Shown here: positions 3,906 to 44,514 of the stretch, piece by piece
Layout of the letters: each line of letters begins with the position of its first letter
Position numbering within the stretch: the stretch's first letter is position 1
Assembly: GCF_000754095.2 (NCBI RefSeq)
Contig: NZ_JQSG02000004.1
Coordinates: 1 to 64,000, forward strand
DNA from: Acidihalobacter prosperus
Lineage (GTDB): Bacteria; Pseudomonadota; Gammaproteobacteria; DSM-5130; Acidihalobacteraceae
Reading direction: 5' to 3'
Length of the DNA: 64,000 nt
Position numbers and translations under genes: made by a program
Notes under the pieces: model-generated
Told to the model about the DNA's origin: nothing
Seen by the model: only the letters and a program-made list of their open reading frames with translations
Databases searched by the model: none

Positions 3906-5639
3906 TCAGGCAGCGAACAGATCGTTCTGCCGATGAGTTAATGCGGGCAAATCCCGTTTTTCGTGCTCGATGACCGTGTCGATATCGATACCCTTTTCTT
4001 TCTGGATATCTTTCAGGATCTCATCAAGCAATGCGTTAGCTTTAGCCTGGTTTTCAGAATCGGCCTTACTAGACACCTCGCGAATCAAGCCATTCCAGAA
4101 CGTCCTGTTCCCAGGATGCGCTTCAGCCCGACGGCAAACTTCCTTGTCGAACTTCTCGGCGTTTTCGTACTGCAGCCAGAATGACTTGTCGACGCGTTCA
4201 TCTTCCGGCGGCAGCCATTGCCGATGTCTTCCGACAATCAGGTTCAAGCGATCGATATGCTTCCTGTTACCGGGGAAGAAATGAATGGTGCCCGTCCCAG
4301 GGTAATAGCGAATGTCGAAGAAATCGCACGAAAGCCTGTTGCCGGCCGCGAGTTCCTCGTATCGTGAATTAAAAAGATCCACCAGCCCGAAATGTTCTGC
4401 CTGTGGATTGCCGTCCAGTAGCGCAAAGGTCTTGTCGAAATCCTCCAGCTTGTTTTTGGCCTCCCAATCCAGGGCTTTGCCGGAATAATTCGGCTTGAAA
4501 TAAGGTAGTACAAAACGCGTGCCCTTGATGCGCATACCGCAAGTGCGATGCTTGTCGTTGGACTTCCATCCGCGATAATGCACGCGATTTCCCGTGTGAT
4601 ACTTTGTAATCTCGTCAAAGATACCGCACAGCATTTCAACCTGGATTTCCCCCTGATTTTCGACAAGACCAGAGAGAAAACCGCGAACATTGGCCACGGT
4701 AAAGTCCAACTCTTTGATTTCTTCAAAGCGTCGAGCGAATTCAGCCTTGATACCGGCTGTCAGCCGCGAGTTGATCTCCGTCATCCGAAGAATGTTGGCC
4801 CAGGCCGAGTTCTTCAGTTTCTGATATCGATCATGCAGCGCATCCCTGACCCACTCGGCTGAACGATGATCTCTTACATCGCCCTGCTCACCGATGATCT
4901 GCTCGAACGTGGGACCGAGCAGATTCTGGTAATACTCGGCGCGGGCTTCCGCGCGCACCAGTTCCTGCGTGGCCACCCAGGCCGCATTGAATGCGAGCAC
5001 TGCGTTTTCGATGTTTGAGTTCGGAATCGCCAAATCCTGATGACAATCGATCTCGATGCTATCCGGCGCTCCGCTGTCTTTGCTGAGATCGACCAGCAAT
5101 GTTCCCAGTAAATCCCGGCTGTCCGCCTTCTTTTCAAGGTGCACCAGGGCGATCTCGACATCGGTTTTGCGTTCGGCATTCGTGAAAGCGCCTTCAATGA
5201 ACTCCACGCTACCGTGATCTTCAATGAGATTGAGCAGATGCTGTCGCTCCCGGCTAAACGGATTGCGTACCGTTTCTGCGTTGAGGATCGCCACGATCTC
5301 TCCATGCCAAAGAATGTCCCAGGCATGCAAAACATGCTTGACGCCTTCGGCAAATGGCGGGTTCATGATGATGTGAGAATACTGGGCGCCCTTGTCGTAA
5401 GACAGGAAGTCCAAACCCAGCACGGTCGCGCCGAGTTCGCGCAATCTTGGATGATGCCGCATGTCGATCTCGAGACAGTCGAAGTTCCGACGATACTCGT
5501 ATTTATTCGGCATCCTTTCGAGCAAAGCTCCGCTTCCTGCTTCCGGCTCCAGCACGCGCTCGAACCTTCGATTGCGAAACAATGCCCACGCGCGGTCCGC
5601 CAAATCCGGCGGCGTTGGGTAAAATTGATTGTCGTTCAT
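3906..5639 (-). CDS. DUF4942-type class I SAM-dependent DNA methyltransferase
   Basis: 577-residue protein starting at the ATG at 5639, with AGGAG 7 bases upstream; an in-frame extension to 5852 has no such support. Residues 29-40 (VLEPEAGSGAL) are the AdoMet-binding motif I and residues 93-96 (NPPF) are the catalytic motif IV of N6-adenine methyltransferases. The C-terminal 350 residues match what I know of the DUF4942 extension found in plasmid and phage methyltransferases. No restriction endonuclease is next to it, so it is an orphan enzyme, perhaps protecting the element or marking its own DNA. Target sequence unknown. Confidence 0.75.
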   Translation of the reverse strand: MNDNQFYPTPPDLADRAWALFRNRRFERVLEPEAGSGALLERMPNKYEYRRNFDCLEIDMRHHPRLRELGATVLGLDFLSYDKGAQYSHIIMNPPFAEGVKHVLHAWDILWHGEIVAILNAETVRNPFSRERQHLLNLIEDHGSVEFIEGAFTNAERKTDVEIALVHLEKKADSRDLLGTLLVDLSKDSGAPDSIEIDCHQDLAIPNSNIENAVLAFNAAWVATQELVRAEARAEYYQNLLGPTFEQIIGEQGDVRDHRSAEWVRDALHDRYQKLKNSAWANILRMTEINSRLTAGIKAEFARRFEEIKELDFTVANVRGFLSGLVENQGEIQVEMLCGIFDEITKYHTGNRVHYRGWKSNDKHRTCGMRIKGTRFVLPYFKPNYSGKALDWEAKNKLEDFDKTFALLDGNPQAEHFGLVDLFNSRYEELAAGNRLSCDFFDIRYYPGTGTIHFFPGNRKHIDRLNLIVGRHRQWLPPEDERVDKSFWLQYENAEKFDKEVCRRAEAHPGNRTFWNGLIREVSSKADSENQAKANALLDEILKDIQKEKGIDIDTVIEHEKRDLPALTHRQNDLFAA

Positions 5640-5707
5640 AAAAGTCTCCTGAACGCGGAGACACAGCCCCGCTGGGACTGTGCCCCGCTGGGGTTGATGT
5701 TGCCGGC

Positions 5708-6097
5708 TCAAGCCAGCCTGTAAATTTTCCCGGTCAACCAGCGCCCACCAAGGAGCGCCAGGAAGACGCCGATGAGGACGCCGGCGCCCATGGGGGTGAC
5801 ATGGCCCGTGTAGGTCTTGTCGATGATTTCTCGCGCGATGAAAATCAGGCACACGTCCAGCAGAAACGCCAGGCGCAAGGCATGCTCCATCGCCCAGGTC
5901 GCACTCATCCAGGCGAGTTCAATCAAGGCAAGCGAGGTCAGAACGTCAGTGACCATCGAACGAATATCGAGCGGATTGCTCGGGGGGATAGCCAGATCGA
6001 TGGCCACATGAACGAGACCGATCAGCGCCATCAGTTGCAGCAGCACTGACGCGACCCACATGAGGATCGCCGTGCCCCAGTAATGCAGTTTCTGCAT
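5708..6097 (-). CDS. PsiE-like small membrane protein (129 aa)
   Basis: Four hydrophobic segments, at about 10-35, 50-67, 76-92 and 105-121. The central stretch ending FIAREIIDK resembles the conserved AREII region of the phosphate-starvation-inducible PsiE family. GGGAGA precedes the ATG at 6097. Family assignment is by pattern only; PsiE itself has no settled biochemical function. Confidence 0.5.
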   Translation of the reverse strand: MQKLHYWGTAILMWVASVLLQLMALIGLVHVAIDLAIPPSNPLDIRSMVTDVLTSLALIELAWMSATWAMEHALRLAFLLDVCLIFIAREIIDKTYTGHVTPMGAGVLIGVFLALLGGRWLTGKIYRLA

Positions 6098-6218
6098 GTA
6101 TTTTCTCCCTGTGTTCCGCGATAACGCCGCGGAGACGTGAAAATGGCAGGCGGTGTCAAACCGTCTGCGATCATCCGTCTGCAAGGAGACAGGCCCGGGA
6201 TATCCGGGCCTGCTTGGT

Positions 6219-6329
6219 TTACCGGCCTCTGCAGGCCTTGCGATTTCTCTGCTTCTTCTTGTCCTGAACCACTCGCGGCCGAAACCGTGGCGTACGGACT
6301 TGCTTGGCGATGGGGTTCCTGCGTTTCAT
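6219..6329 (-). CDS. small basic phage-type protein (36 aa)
   Basis: Short gene with GAGGAA 7 bases before the ATG. It begins MKRRNPIAK and ends in a run of Lys/Arg. This is the pattern of tiny basic proteins common in phages and plasmids (MK-K/R-RNP-AK start). It fills the gap between the PsiE-like gene and the TIM-barrel gene on the same strand. Confidence 0.6.
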   Translation of the reverse strand: MKRRNPIAKQVRTPRFRPRVVQDKKKQRNRKACRGR

Positions 6330-6407
6330 CAGTAATTCCTCAACCGTTTTGCATGAGTTTTATTCGAATTTTGCTTTATTGAGTTATCCGGCGATGACCG
6401 CGCCGGA

Positions 6408-6468
6408 GCGGTATCAATCTTTCCGTAGCGCGAATGCGCTCTGGAAAGATCCCCGGCCGAAGCCGGGG
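6408..6468. repeat. intergenic 61-bp repeat with terminator hairpin, copy 1
   Basis: Begins GCGGTATCAATCTTTC and ends in the perfect hairpin CCCCGGCCGAAGCCGGGG. The same arrangement occurs at 7803-7863. Each copy lies just downstream of a minus-strand gene, so the hairpin probably terminates it; the conserved 40 bases beside it are unexplained. Confidence 0.75.
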
Positions 6469-6480
6469 AACAGGAATGAT

Positions 6481-7224
6481 TTAGAAAAAGAACGGTCTTG
6501 TTTGGCCGCCTTCAGTGAACATAGTGGCTTGTGGGTTGGCGCATAACAGCATTTCCCACCACCACGGCTCGTTGGCGAGCTGCCCATGAGTGTCTGCGTC
6601 GCCGGCATTTCCAGAAAGGTGTATTTCAATGCACCGGTCGCTGGATAACAGTCTTTTTAGAAGCCGATCGTTTCTCTCACCAGTCCTATGGACGAGGATG
6701 TTGATATGTGACAGATCGATGGCGTACTTCACTCCAGACCGAAATAACGCCTCATATTCATCCCAGGTCGAGATGAGATAGTCAGCGCGGCTTGGGTACA
6801 TTCCTTCGATGCCCACCGGAATACCCATTCTTTCTTCCAGGGATCGAGTGTTCTCAAAGATTTCCTCAAGCGTGGCGTTTTTCCGATGGCCCGCATGCCA
6901 GGTATAAGCCGGAGAACGGAATGCGCCGGCCATATCGACTACCCGATTAAAGTAATCCGGATATCGGTCAAACGTGGACGCATCTGCGTCTACGGGCCAG
7001 CCCTCGACGTGAACATTGGCATGCAGCCTGAAGCTTACGTCGGGATTTTCAGCCATCAGGTCTTCCGCGTCTTCGTGCGACAGATTGCCAGGATTCTGCG
7101 GGCATATCTGGACATGCTCGACAGAGAGCGCGCCTAACAAGGGCTCGCTCGAGTTTCTGGCCGCACTGATCGCTGTTTTCACCCGCAATCCACGCCAGGC
7201 ACCGAGACTGACGTTACAGTTCAT
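6481..7224 (-). CDS. xylose-isomerase-like TIM-barrel protein, possibly MNIO-related (247 aa)
   Basis: Start taken at the ATG at 7224, which overlaps the end of the upstream gene by 11 bases. Motifs HAGH, GIEGMY, IDLSHINI and IEIHLSGNAGDADTH are spaced like the His/Glu/Asp/His metal ligands of the AP-endonuclease-2 or xylose-isomerase superfamily. The order also recalls the DUF692/MNIO iron enzymes that modify peptides. It could be a sugar-phosphate epimerase, a nuclease or an MNIO enzyme; the superfamily is likely, the reaction unknown. A longer frame to 7455 overlaps the neighbour and is not credible. Confidence 0.55.
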   Translation of the reverse strand: MNCNVSLGAWRGLRVKTAISAARNSSEPLLGALSVEHVQICPQNPGNLSHEDAEDLMAENPDVSFRLHANVHVEGWPVDADASTFDRYPDYFNRVVDMAGAFRSPAYTWHAGHRKNATLEEIFENTRSLEERMGIPVGIEGMYPSRADYLISTWDEYEALFRSGVKYAIDLSHINILVHRTGERNDRLLKRLLSSDRCIEIHLSGNAGDADTHGQLANEPWWWEMLLCANPQATMFTEGGQTRPFFF

Positions 7225-38970: not shown

Positions 38971-39721
38971 CCATGTTTGCCACCGCGCGAGCCTGTTAGA
39001 GACAGAGATCGGTCTGGGCGATCACATTCCCAGGGAGGCCGTACCGGTCGGGTCGGTCGAGTTCGCGCGCGCCAGGATGCGGCAGATTGGTGTCAGCGCC
39101 CCCCTTATCGGCAGTTATCCCGATGCGCTCCGCTCATTTTTGATGCGCTCGCTAGAGCGAACCACCTTGGGCGACGCGGCTCCAGGATCTTTCGTGAAGC
39201 CCGTCAGGGTCAAGGCCTTCGACGCGATCACGGATTACCCGGGGTTCGAAACTTGCGGTCTGAATCTACCTGCCGAGACGCCGTGCTGGTCCTCGCCCAA
39301 GCAAACCTGGTTGTCCGAATATCGGGCTTACATTCTCGATGGCGATCTGGCCGGGTTCGCCCAGTATGGAGAAGGTCCTGATTGGGACCTCTGTGAGCCG
39401 TTGCTCGCGCAGCTTCGCACCATGATCCGCACCTGGACCGACGCGCCGGCAGCGTATGCGCTGGATGTCGCCGTTGTGGTCAATGAGCGACTGGAAACCC
39501 TGTGTGACAATGGCTGCTCCTATGGAACCGTTCTGAACGGTTCTCTCGCCCTGGTCGAGGTGAACGACGGCTGGGCAACAGGGTACTACCGCGACGCGAT
39601 TACCCCGCGCAAGTATGCCGCATGGCTTAATGCCCGGTGGATGGAACTCATTCGCCAGGATGGCAATCAAGCCGCCGATTCCCATTCACGCGATATGCCC
39701 AAAATCAACGGTGCCGCATGA
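38891..39721 (+). CDS. ATP-grasp domain protein, DUF4343 type (276 aa)
   Basis: FVKPVRVKAFDA, then WLSEYRAYILDGDLAGFAQY, then APAAYALDVAVV and ALVEVNDGWATGYYRDA follow the ATP-binding and metal-binding order of ATP-grasp ligases of the DUF4343 kind. They activate a carboxylate with ATP and join it to an amine or thiol. Substrate unknown. Overlaps the uracil-DNA-glycosylase-like gene by ATGA, so the two are functionally linked. Confidence 0.75.
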   Translation: MSHFLLQREYANSPESNAILMASALDDHVCHRASLLETEIGLGDHIPREAVPVGSVEFARARMRQIGVSAPLIGSYPDALRSFLMRSLERTTLGDAAPGSFVKPVRVKAFDAITDYPGFETCGLNLPAETPCWSSPKQTWLSEYRAYILDGDLAGFAQYGEGPDWDLCEPLLAQLRTMIRTWTDAPAAYALDVAVVVNERLETLCDNGCSYGTVLNGSLALVEVNDGWATGYYRDAITPRKYAAWLNARWMELIRQDGNQAADSHSRDMPKINGAA

Positions 39722-40383: not shown

Positions 40384-41040
40384 ATGCTCAGCGATAACAG
40401 GCACAGCAGGCAGGCATTTGCCTCTGGCTTTGCTTCCAGTCTTGAGGCTGAGCCGTTTCTTTCCGCAACCGATGCGTGTCGACGCGCCGATTATGTTTGG
40501 AATCAAGCCTTCATCCCCAGCCCCGCCCAGGTCGAGCGCGGGTTGACCGATCAGTACACACTCGTTAGATCCGGCTTCTCACGAATTACGACCTACCGCC
40601 CCACACTCACACAAATTGAGCGCGGGTTGACCGACCCCGAAGGTTGCGTTCGGTGCGGTTTTGCCTGGCGCATGGATTACCAGATGAGCCTATTACAGAT
40701 CGTGCGCGCGCTAGAAGACCCCGAGTGGTACGTCAGGGAAGCACTGCTTTCGCGTCCCGAGGTCGCCTTGTCTCCCGATATTATTTGCAACGCCCTAGCC
40801 GACCCGAGGCCAGAAATCCGCGCGCGTATCGCGAGCAGGTTGGACTGGGAACCCACAACAGCCCAAGCGCAAAACGGCCTAAACGACACATCGGATCTGG
40901 TTCGCCTGATCTGGCGCACTCGCTCAAGTGGGCAACCCAGCCCGCGTTTCTCGTATAGTCCATGGAACAGACTTCCGCAGGCCAATAGGTGCCTATTGGC
41001 TCAAAATCAATCAGCCGCTAAGCAACCTCATCCTGTCTAG
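40384..41040 (+). CDS. LRV/HEAT-like repeat protein (218 aa)
   Basis: Repeated units of about 24 residues with the signature Q-x-E-R-G-L-T-D, then V-R-x-G-F (QVERGLTDQYTLVRSGF, QIERGLTDPEGCVRCGF, and two diverged copies) form a helical solenoid of the leucine-rich-variant type. Likely a protein-binding scaffold. Ends close to the left side of the IscB element. Confidence 0.65.
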   Translation: MLSDNRHSRQAFASGFASSLEAEPFLSATDACRRADYVWNQAFIPSPAQVERGLTDQYTLVRSGFSRITTYRPTLTQIERGLTDPEGCVRCGFAWRMDYQMSLLQIVRALEDPEWYVREALLSRPEVALSPDIICNALADPRPEIRARIASRLDWEPTTAQAQNGLNDTSDLVRLIWRTRSSGQPSPRFSYSPWNRLPQANRCLLAQNQSAAKQPHPV

Positions 41041-41120
41041 ATAGCTGAGAGCCTTTAACCAACATCAAAATCGCTCGCTTGCGTGTTCGAGGCACCATGC
41101 GAACATCGCCCCGTCAACCA

Positions 41121-42788
41121 CCCCTCCCTGAAGGGAGGGGCTTGTAGGGAGACCTATAAGCCCGGGGTTGACCAGGGAAAGCGGTAATCAGCCCGCTACG
41201 TTGGCGACAGGTCAGAAGACCCACTCCGAGATGCTTCCTGAGTCTCGGACCCTGGAAGGAACCGTTGCAGACAAGGCACGGGTAGCCACGAAACGGACGG
41301 TTCCCGCCGGTCGATCCGGCAAGCCGGTTGCCGACATTCCCGAAGGGAGACGCCCCGAAAGGGGCGCGTTACAAGGCCCGTAAGGGCGTTTTTTGGAGAA
41401 AAACATGGCAGTCTTTGTGATCGACAAACACAAGCGGCCCTTGATGCCGTGCTCGGAGAAGCGGGCGCGGCTCCTGCTGGAGCGGGGCCGGGCCGTGGTC
41501 CACCGTCAGGTGCCCTTCGTGATCCGTCTCAAGGACCGCACCGTCCAGCACTCCGCGGTGCAGCCGCTGCGCGTGGCCTTGGACCCCGGCAGCCGGGCCA
41601 CCGGCATGGCGCTGGTGCGGGAGAAGAACACGGTGGACACCGGAACAGGTGAAGTGTACCGGGAGCGGATCGCGCTCAACCTGTTCGAGCTGGTCCATCG
41701 CGGGCATCGAATCCGCGAACAGTTGGATCAGCGGCGCAATTTCCGCCGGCGCCGTCGCGGAGCCAACCTGCGCTACCGCGCCCCGCGTTTCGACAACCGC
41801 CGGCGGCCGCCAGGCTGGCTCGCCCCGTCGCTGCAGCACCGGGTGGATACGACCATGGCCTGGGTGCGGCGCCTGTGCCGCTGGGCACCTGCGTCCGCCA
41901 TCGGCATCGAGACGGTGCGCTTCGACACCCAGCGCCTGCAGAACCCGGAGATCTCGGGTGTGGAATACCAGCAGGGGGCGCTCGCCGGCTGCGAGGTGCG
42001 GGAGTACCTGCTGGAGAAATGGGGCCGTAAGTGCGCCTACTGCGGAGCCGAAAACGTGCCGCTTGAGATCGAGCACATCGTGCCGAAGAGCCGGGGCGGG
42101 TCCGACCGGGTGAGCAACCTTGCCCTGGCGTGCCGGGCCTGCAATCAGGCCAAGGGCAACCGCGACGTGCGGGCGTTTCTTGCCGATCAGCCGGAACGGC
42201 TGGCGAGGATCCTGGCGCAGGCCAAGGCCCCGCTGAAAGACGCCGCGGCGGTCAACGCCACCCGATGGGCGTTGTACCGGGCGCTGGTGGACACCGGCCT
42301 GCCGGTGGAAGCCGGTACCGGCGGACGGACCAAGTGGAACCGGACCCGGCTGGGCCTCCCCAAGACCCATGCCCTCGATGCCTTGTGCGTTGGACAGGTG
42401 GACCAGGTCCGGCATTGGCGGGTGCCCGTTCTCGGCATCCGCTGCGCCGGGCGCGGCAGCTACCGGCGCACCCGGCTGACGAGGCACGGCTTTCCCCGTG
42501 GCTACCTGACCCGGAACAAAAGCGCCTTCGGGTTTCAGACGGGCGACCTGATCCGGGCCGTGGTGACCAAGGGGAAGAAGGCCGGAACCTACCTGGGCCG
42601 CATCGCCATCCGGGCCAGCGGCAGTTTCAACATCCAGACCCCAATGGGGGTCGTGCAAGGCATCCATCACCGCTTCTGCACATTGCTCCAGCGTGCGGAT
42701 GGGTATGGATACTTTGTTCAACCCAAACCCACGGAGGCCGCGCTTTCCTCCCCCCGCCTGAAGGCGGGGGTATCCAGCGCGGGAAACT
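41121..42788 (+). mobile_element. IscB-carrying IS200/IS605-like element without tnpA
   Basis: Left hairpin CCCCTCCCTGAAGGGAGGGG (41121-41140) followed by CTTGTAGGG, and right hairpin CCCCCGCCTGAAGGCGGGGG (42751-42770) followed by TATCC, bracket iscB. Subterminal imperfect palindromes of this kind are the ends used by IS200/IS605-family elements. There is no Y1 transposase gene, so it would need one in trans. The exact ends are not determined. Confidence 0.7.
41141..41404 (+). ncRNA. probable omega-RNA of IscB
   Basis: About 260 non-coding bases directly upstream of iscB, rich in pairable segments: CCCGCCGGTCGATCCGGCAAGCCGG, ACGCCCCGAAAGGGGCGCG, and CCCGTAAGGGCG just before the GGAG of iscB. 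IscB omega-RNAs are known to lie in this position, with the scaffold ending at the ribosome site and the guide at the 5' end. Boundaries and guide are inferred, not seen. Confidence 0.7.
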
Positions 42789-42790
42789 GA
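41405..42790 (+). CDS. iscB: IscB, RNA-guided HNH/RuvC endonuclease (461 aa)
   Basis: PLMP motif at residues 12-15; RuvC-I Asp60 (RVALDPGSRATG); arginine-rich bridge helix around 109-134 (RRNFRRRRRG); RuvC-II Glu169 (IGIETVRFD); HNH with C210-x2-C213, His224, Asn238 and C243-x2-C246; RuvC-III His322 and Asp325 (KTHALDAL). All catalytic residues are present, so the nuclease is probably active. It is the ancestor-type relative of Cas9. GGAG lies 6 bases before the ATG. Its TGA overlaps the ATG of recJ. Confidence 0.93.
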   Translation: MAVFVIDKHKRPLMPCSEKRARLLLERGRAVVHRQVPFVIRLKDRTVQHSAVQPLRVALDPGSRATGMALVREKNTVDTGTGEVYRERIALNLFELVHRGHRIREQLDQRRNFRRRRRGANLRYRAPRFDNRRRPPGWLAPSLQHRVDTTMAWVRRLCRWAPASAIGIETVRFDTQRLQNPEISGVEYQQGALAGCEVREYLLEKWGRKCAYCGAENVPLEIEHIVPKSRGGSDRVSNLALACRACNQAKGNRDVRAFLADQPERLARILAQAKAPLKDAAAVNATRWALYRALVDTGLPVEAGTGGRTKWNRTRLGLPKTHALDALCVGQVDQVRHWRVPVLGIRCAGRGSYRRTRLTRHGFPRGYLTRNKSAFGFQTGDLIRAVVTKGKKAGTYLGRIAIRASGSFNIQTPMGVVQGIHHRFCTLLQRADGYGYFVQPKPTEAALSSPRLKAGVSSAGN

Positions 42791-44514
42791 TGAACACGAT
42801 CATCAAACGCCGACCGAACACGGCATCGGAAAATCTTCCGCTCATCGAACGCCTGTTTTGCGCCCGCGGCGTATCAGGCATTGAGGCTTCCGGACTTTCC
42901 GACATCCCTCCGTTCGACACCCTGCACGGTATTCATGATGCCGCCACGCTGATCGCGGATGCCATCGAAACCGGACGCCACATCCGCATCATCGGCGATT
43001 ACGACGTGGACGGAGCCACCAGCACCGCGCTCGTCTACCGGGCGCTCGCCCTGCTCGGTGCCAAGCGCGTCTCCTTCGCCGTTCCCAACCGGATCACGCA
43101 GGGATACGGCCTCTCGCCCGCACTGGTACAGGACGCCGCACGCGACGAGGCTCGCCTGCTCATCACCGTCGATAACGGTATCAGCGCCTTCGAAGGCGTC
43201 GACACCGCCCGCTATCTCGGCCTGCAGGTGGTCATCACGGACCATCACTTGCCCGGGGAACGATTGCCGAACGCCGACGCCATCGTAAACCCGGCCATCC
43301 CCGGACAGGATTTCCCAAGCAGGTCGCTCGCCGGCGTCGGCGTCGCGTTCTACGTCATGGCCGCCGCCCGCGCCGAACTCGACAGCCGCGGCGCTTTTGC
43401 CGGCCGAGACAAGCCGTCTCTATCCAGCCTGCTTGACCTCGTGGCGCTCGGCACCGTCGCCGATGTCGTCAAACTCGATTCCCTCAATCGAACATTGGTC
43501 CGTGCAGGCCTGCGCCGCATTCGGCACGGCATGACCGCCACGGGGCTGCGCGCCCTGGTCGACGTGGCCGGTCGCGACATAACGCACCTATCGGAAACCG
43601 ACCTTGCCTTCGGCGTAGCGCCCAGACTGAACGCCGCGGGTCGCCTCGACGACATGACCCTGGGCATCGAATGCCTGCTCGCCACCGACACGGAACAGGC
43701 CCGATGTTTGGCCGGGCTCCTGGATATCACCAATCAGCGCCGACGCGAAATCGAGCAAACCATGCGCGCCGAAGCTCTGGCCGAGTGCGAAAACCTGCTC
43801 GATTCACTGAATAACGAAACACCCCCGCCTGGACTTTGCGTGTTCCAGAACGACTGGCACGAGGGCGTCGTCGGCTTGGTCGCCGGCAAACTCAAGGAGC
43901 GCTTCCATCGCCCCGCCGTCGCCTTCGCACCCGGCGCCGATGGCATGCTCAAGGGCTCTGCCAGGTCCATCCCAGGCATCCACATCCGCGACGTGCTGGC
44001 CGATATCGAATCGCGATCCCCGGGGCTTCTGCCTAAATTCGGCGGACACGCCATGGCCGCCGGGCTGTCCATCGACGCCGAACGTCTTGATACATTCCGC
44101 CCGCTGTGGGAGACGGCCATCGCCGAACGCGCAGATCCCCATGCATTCGAACCCGTTATCCTCACCGACGGCGAACTCGCTCCCGATGATCTGTCCCTGG
44201 CGTCGGCGATCGACATCGAAGCGGCCGGACCCTGGGGACAAGGATTCCCAGAACCCCTGTTCGACGGCGAGTTCACGGTAACCGGCGCCCGCATCATCGG
44301 CAAAGAGGGCAACCATCTCCGGCTCGACCTGCTGGACCCGCGCAGCGGCAAGATATTCCCGTCCGTGGCCTTCAACCACGCCGATATCGGGCTTGACGAT
44401 GATCCTCGCGGCCAGTCCGCCCGTTTTGTTTATCGGCTCTCGGCCAACCGCTTCCGCGGCGATGTCAGTCTGCAGCTGATGGTCGAAGCCTATGATTTGC
44501 CCGTCGCACCATGA
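42790..44514 (+). CDS. recJ: RecJ, single-strand-specific 5'-3' exonuclease (574 aa)
   Basis: DHH-family motifs: IIGDYDVDGATST at residues 67-79, LITVDNGIS, and TDHHLPGE (His152-His153), then FGVAPRLNAAGRL and the C-terminal FGGHAMAAG of the DHHA1 domain. It degrades single-stranded DNA in repair and recombination. Its own upstream sequence has been replaced by the end of the IscB element, so its expression may now depend on that element. Overlaps the next gene by ATGA. Confidence 0.92.
   Translation: MNTIIKRRPNTASENLPLIERLFCARGVSGIEASGLSDIPPFDTLHGIHDAATLIADAIETGRHIRIIGDYDVDGATSTALVYRALALLGAKRVSFAVPNRITQGYGLSPALVQDAARDEARLLITVDNGISAFEGVDTARYLGLQVVITDHHLPGERLPNADAIVNPAIPGQDFPSRSLAGVGVAFYVMAAARAELDSRGAFAGRDKPSLSSLLDLVALGTVADVVKLDSLNRTLVRAGLRRIRHGMTATGLRALVDVAGRDITHLSETDLAFGVAPRLNAAGRLDDMTLGIECLLATDTEQARCLAGLLDITNQRRREIEQTMRAEALAECENLLDSLNNETPPPGLCVFQNDWHEGVVGLVAGKLKERFHRPAVAFAPGADGMLKGSARSIPGIHIRDVLADIESRSPGLLPKFGGHAMAAGLSIDAERLDTFRPLWETAIAERADPHAFEPVILTDGELAPDDLSLASAIDIEAAGPWGQGFPEPLFDGEFTVTGARIIGKEGNHLRLDLLDPRSGKIFPSVAFNHADIGLDDDPRGQSARFVYRLSANRFRGDVSLQLMVEAYDLPVAP

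Follow-up and report, generated by a model that had tools for sequence, protein, structure and literature searches.

A probable IscB element insertion directly before the start codon of a recJ gene in Acidihalobacter prosperus

What becomes of a gene when a mobile element comes to lie against its start codon is the question raised by a locus in the window studied here, by which we mean the whole stretch of 64,000 nucleotides taken from contig NZ_JQSG02000004.1 of Acidihalobacter prosperus. In this window an intact recJ gene directly follows iscB, such that the stop codon of iscB (TGA, 42788-42790) overlaps the ATG of recJ (42790) in the sequence TGATG, just as a preliminary description of the DNA had stated. 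We consider it probable that an IscB OMEGA element of the IS200/IS605 type, without a TnpA of its own, inserted immediately 5' of an ATGA that comprises the recJ start codon and the base after it, and that the ends of the element are built in a way that spares the gene. As an IscB OMEGA element it is ordinary and of a known kind, one more IscB, and it is the start-codon design rather than the element itself that forms the interesting part.

The IscB element and its boundaries

The features on which the argument draws are as follows.

41093-41112, + strand: predicted guide segment of about 20 bases, the old recJ leader, adjoining the left end
41113-41140, + strand: left end of the element, GTCAAC and a hairpin, from the alignment of relatives
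41113-41355, + strand: HEARO omega-RNA, Rfam RF02033, model positions 1-211
41395-41398, + strand: GGAG, probably the ribosome-binding site of iscB, read from the sequence
41405-42790, + strand: iscB, an open reading frame of 461 amino acids, its stop TGA made of the element's TG and the target's A
42733-42737, + strand: GGAGG, candidate recJ ribosome-binding site, abutting the right-end stem
42738-42782, + strand: right-end hairpin, outer stem CCGCGCT/AGCGCGG
42783-42789, + strand: final element bases, GAAACTG, from the right-end alignment
42790-42793, + strand: target tetranucleotide and expected target-adjacent motif (TAM), ATGA, the recJ start codon plus A, from the right junctions of relatives
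42790-44514, + strand: recJ, intact, 574 amino acids, a second copy in the genome that is 57% identical to the other copy

Profile searches leave little room for argument over the identity of the protein, with Pfam matches to RRXRR (PF14239, residues 3-191, E 4.9e-69) and to an HNH domain (residues 210-253), and with a score of 457 bits for NCBIfam NF040563 (guided_IscB), for which the cut-off is 175. PLMP, RuvC I (VALDPGSR), RuvC II (IGIETVRFD), HNH (EIEHIVPKSRGG) and RuvC III (PKTHALDA) can be picked out by eye and aligned to the TbaIscB structure 9k30, and the protein therefore has the PLMP motif, split RuvC and HNH, with their catalytic residues, that characterise an IscB RNA-guided endonuclease. 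The structurally conserved omega-RNA expected directly upstream of such a gene is also present. When the whole window was searched, HEARO (RF02033), which is the Rfam name for the IscB omega-RNA, was found at 41113-41355 with 104.8 bits, above the gathering score of 83 (E 1.6e-20), within the 292 bases that precede iscB, and the RNA probably extends on to about 41404. Its predicted folding is 6.1 standard deviations below that of shuffled sequences, and in an alignment of 19 sequences both partners have changed with pairing kept at 43 of the 66 predicted pairs. The preliminary description, which had claimed an intact IscB with all of its PLMP, RuvC and HNH residues and an upstream omega-RNA whose structure should be conserved in homologues, is thus upheld in each of these respects. 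IscB would be expected to perform RNA-guided cutting beside its TAM, of which the ATGA flank is the known part.

Just 5' of the putative iscB ribosome-binding site, at 41374-41394, there is a short hairpin followed by a T run (GGCCCGTAAGGGCGTTTTTT). It resembles a weak terminator and could part the omega-RNA from the iscB mRNA; the hairpin is kept in relatives, and its T run is not.

The boundaries of the element, 41113 (GTCAAC) to 42789 (AAACTG), come from comparison with relatives. Homology among these begins at GTCAA[CT], the sequence to the left of this being unrelated and differing between copies within one genome, and their right ends share a hairpin, then about six bases, and then ATGA. 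With 42789 as the last base of the element, the final A of the iscB stop comes from the target site. The left end is consequently eight bases further out than the 41121 first proposed, and whilst the idea that the left flank provides the guide stands in principle, the predicted segment sits in the gap 3' of the upstream gene (40384-41040, with a weak HEAT match as its sole Pfam match) and not inside that gene. We found no other site in the genome that matches ATGCGAACATCGCCCC plus ATGA within 3 mismatches. The earlier view that the element replaced the recJ leader fits these boundaries, in that the old leader now lies to the left of the element, and the ATG at 42790 can be taken as the canonical RecJ start because the alignment to the PRK11070 model pairs RecJ residue 12 with model position 14.

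The genome has one HEARO, which makes this a single-copy element, and no TnpB match. There is no Y1 transposase TnpA at the locus and no IS200-type TnpA anywhere in the genome, whose two Y1 transposases are both of the REP-associated type and lie on other contigs. As an IS200/IS605-type element lacking its own TnpA, it is at most a non-autonomous member of that group. Relatives display hairpin ends, a fixed tetranucleotide, no long target duplication and empty sites, all of which are expected of the IS200/IS605 type, with the empty sites being those of relatives and not of the window copy.

Start codons at the junctions of relatives

We compared the window element with about 70 relatives. Of 60 elements that have an NTGA junction, that of the window among them, the tetranucleotide is ATGA in 59 and TTGA in one. 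An open reading frame of at least 100 codons opens at 47 of the 59 assessable junctions, compared with 26% of background ATGA sites. A stricter proxy classes 32 of 48 as start-like, compared with 12% of the background (p about 1e-18), and Shine-Dalgarno-like sequence is over-represented in the 15 bases that adjoin the element on the left and would have led into the ATG before insertion (p 3e-7); both p-values assume that the loci are independent, which is only roughly true. In annotated plasmids the junction coincides exactly with an annotated start in five of nine cases (two of the five being the same site in related plasmids), as opposed to 14 of the 306 other ATGA sites (4.6%). Were insertions into the interior of genes simply lost, about 15% would be expected at starts; the start junctions exceed this, as would be the case if start codons are targeted. 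Taken together, these sequence comparisons suggest that elements of the IscB family would usually insert before start codons.

HEARO mini-elements without iscB are numerous, both in one genome (L160, L165, L172 and L175) and in two relatives (L149, L161, L166 and L167). We considered the idea that such mini-elements avoid starts, which was rejected given that those of the ATGA type sit at starts: two genomes of one family contain mini-elements, about 360-395 bases long, that also precede ATGA, and a frame of at least 90 codons opens at six of the nine ATGA mini-elements read. A separate family of GTGA mini-elements is not located at gene starts. Since ATGA mini-elements without iscB are also at starts, placement is independent of iscB and tied to the ATGA type.

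Element ends and the fate of recJ

Three features of the ends may spare the genes on either side. The target ATGA supplies the iscB stop in 36 of 70 elements, through TGATG or ATGA overlaps, and TGATG overlaps are classic re-initiation sites that couple translation. Of 62 distinct right ends, 43 have AGGAG or GGAGG just 5' of the terminal hairpin, compared with 4.8% of control windows inside iscB. The motif is seen in each of the three iscB frames, so that coding for protein does not account for it. Its distance from the ATG follows the size of the hairpin, at about 58, 67, 84 or 92 bases. We propose that it could act as a hairpin-bridged ribosome-binding site for the downstream gene, a model in which 85% of the aligned pairs of the bridging helix are standard and which single-sequence folds also support; RNAalifold returned no structure for the right-end alignment. 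Elements in Streptosporangium end in GGAGGTAAT[CT]G before the ATGA and so carry an ordinary ribosome-binding site. Judged by these signals, downstream translation may start from sequences that the element provides. At the left end, 54 of 59 elements carry a stop codon that lies six codons in and reads in the frame of the TGA that belonged to the split ATGA. The window copy has TGA at 41129-41131, in the frame for which the target TGA would have been the stop, and at 16 loci an upstream open frame of at least 60 codons runs in this frame. This stop may, however, be a by-product of the tetraloop.

A simpler account would treat the start position as a by-product too, with insertion at any ATGA followed by loss of the gene-interior insertions, and with the end motifs and stops as coincidences of hairpins that TnpA requires. 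In its favour, the two end hairpins share a TGAA/TAAA loop, which may reflect a tetraloop constraint, and the GTGA mini-elements show that starts are not occupied by every family. Given that the loss of gene-interior insertions predicts far fewer starts than the five of nine observed, and that AGGAG stays beside the hairpin although its distance to the ATG varies, we regard this account as unlikely.

It had also been suggested that the element may drive recJ. This is borne out only in part, given that a search of 40900-43000 revealed no sigma-70-like promoter, and it is therefore more likely that the element passes host transcription on and provides translation signals. If the element was inserted before recJ in the gene-sparing manner that we favour, a host promoter upstream of the old leader would give a transcript containing the leader as guide, the omega-RNA, iscB and recJ, in which the old recJ leader would have become the guide of the omega-RNA. 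The IscB ribonucleoprotein would then cut alleles in which leader and ATGA are still joined, an empty recJ allele being expected as ...ATGCGAACATCGCCCC followed directly by ATGAACACG, and repair would copy the element back. Ribosomes terminating iscB at TGATG would restart on the recJ ATG and keep recJ expressed, assisted by the GGAGG beside the right-end hairpin, and the stop in the left-end hairpin would close any upstream gene whose TGA overlapped the ATGA.

Using the joined flanks of insertions to look for uninterrupted relatives, we found empty sites for two related plasmid insertions, and in both the whole element is absent, omega-RNA included, as the preliminary description would have it. 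For one insertion (L128) the join GAGCGA to ATGAAG is seamless in pPVG21, whilst in pDK1, the empty plasmid for the other insertion (L129/L135), a nuclease-related gene is annotated as starting at the ATGA. Empty sites were also sought for two further plasmid insertions and one chromosomal set, and none were found. An 18-base match in a viral contig to the recJ leader plus ATGA proved unrelated.

Several observations weigh against a gene-sparing insertion at the recJ start. The ATG in pPVG21 is codon 19 of an annotated gene, which shows that some targets are not true starts, and about a fifth of junctions have no long open reading frame. The plasmids with the L129/L135 insertion have one extra ATGA compared with the empty site (L140), which is either a short duplication or slippage. 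For the exact recJ site of the window, neither an empty copy nor a close relative was found amongst plasmids, viral contigs and 369 genomes of the class, and in a related conjugative element (L106) the recJ start region could not be aligned. The leader in the window has no clear Shine-Dalgarno sequence of its own, folding predicts the hairpin that would bridge the ribosome-binding site for no more than about half of the elements, and when the bridging stem was sought by a free duplex search, the outcome was not clearly above shuffles. Finally, the support is drawn entirely from sequence, from which expression and cleavage are predicted.

The insertion might instead silence recJ, through polarity or structured RNA, leaving the element as a defunct remnant that persists only through its host element. 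Some 1.7 kb of structured RNA now lies 5' of recJ, no promoter was found in the element, the genome is without an IS200-type TnpA and another copy of recJ exists; on the other hand iscB, the omega-RNA and recJ are all intact, and the TGATG overlap offers a textbook site for re-initiation, such that we think silencing rather improbable. The neighbourhood holds conjugation and DNA-repair genes (TraI_2, TraD, UDG, UmuC-like) and several relatives are located in conjugation regions of plasmids, so the omega-RNA-iscB unit could have been co-opted as an operon gene of the conjugative element, for example to attack rivals with an empty recJ allele, but this seems very doubtful given that relatives occupy many unrelated sites, for which a mobile element suffices without any special role.

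Two more gene overlaps in the region take the form ATGA, R2K/UDG at 39718 and recJ/methylase at 44511, and such junctions are therefore common there. The related conjugative element mentioned above (L106, 3746-7213), from the same family as the window genome, has a broken recJ, the fragments of which are separated by an IS200/IS605 element with a TnpB-like open reading frame (5137-6432) and a TnpA-like one (6447-6872). There recJ has fared the opposite way to the recJ of the window, which the insertion would have spared.

Comparison with known systems

Extending the preferred reading from recJ to the whole clade, its IscB/HEARO elements might be start-codon elements, which insert before ATGA starts or stop-start junctions, take the leader as guide, borrow a stop, close the gene upstream and provide the gene downstream with a fresh ribosome-binding site, whereby host operons would withstand the insertion. 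We consider this broader proposal about evenly poised between true and false. If it is true, relatives of the ancestor of Cas9 spread in a gene-sparing manner, with a translation leader for a guide and a start codon for a TAM, and this would unite the NTGA type of TAM, the lack of an obvious element promoter and the frequency with which iscB frames lack a stop of their own. Work from 2009 reportedly noted the ATGA/GTGA flanks of HEARO elements. We found no description of a start-codon architecture in the open-access literature that we searched by term; the founding HEARO and ISC papers and the 2021 OMEGA work lie outside that scope and may mention start codons.

The closest known systems are the IscB OMEGA/HEARO elements themselves (ISC transposons of the IS200/IS605 superfamily), which have the same protein, RNA and order of parts, a guide from the 5' flank and an NTGA-like far flank. 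In these the 5' flank of the RNA acts as the guide and cutting occurs beside a TAM (PMC9755519). Nothing distinguishes the window copy from them, the absence of an adjacent TnpA also being usual (PMC9755519). The relative IsrB uses NTGA TAMs, and DtIsrB resembles the window system in its PLMP-RuvC protein, omega-RNA and NTGA TAM (PMC9581776). IsrB differs in lacking HNH and in only nicking, whereas the window protein has an HNH domain. TnpB differs in having a 3'-terminal guide in its RNA and a TAM 5' of the target, and in belonging to a different nuclease family from IscB. The likeness to the TnpB elements of IS605 and IS607 lies in an RNA-guided nuclease that is thought to retain the transposon after excision (PMC10278001). 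IStrons represent another route by which elements of IS200/IS605 or IS607 type spare host genes (PMC4227781), but these splice themselves from RNA, whereas the window element has no intron and would keep its gene through placement and translation signals.
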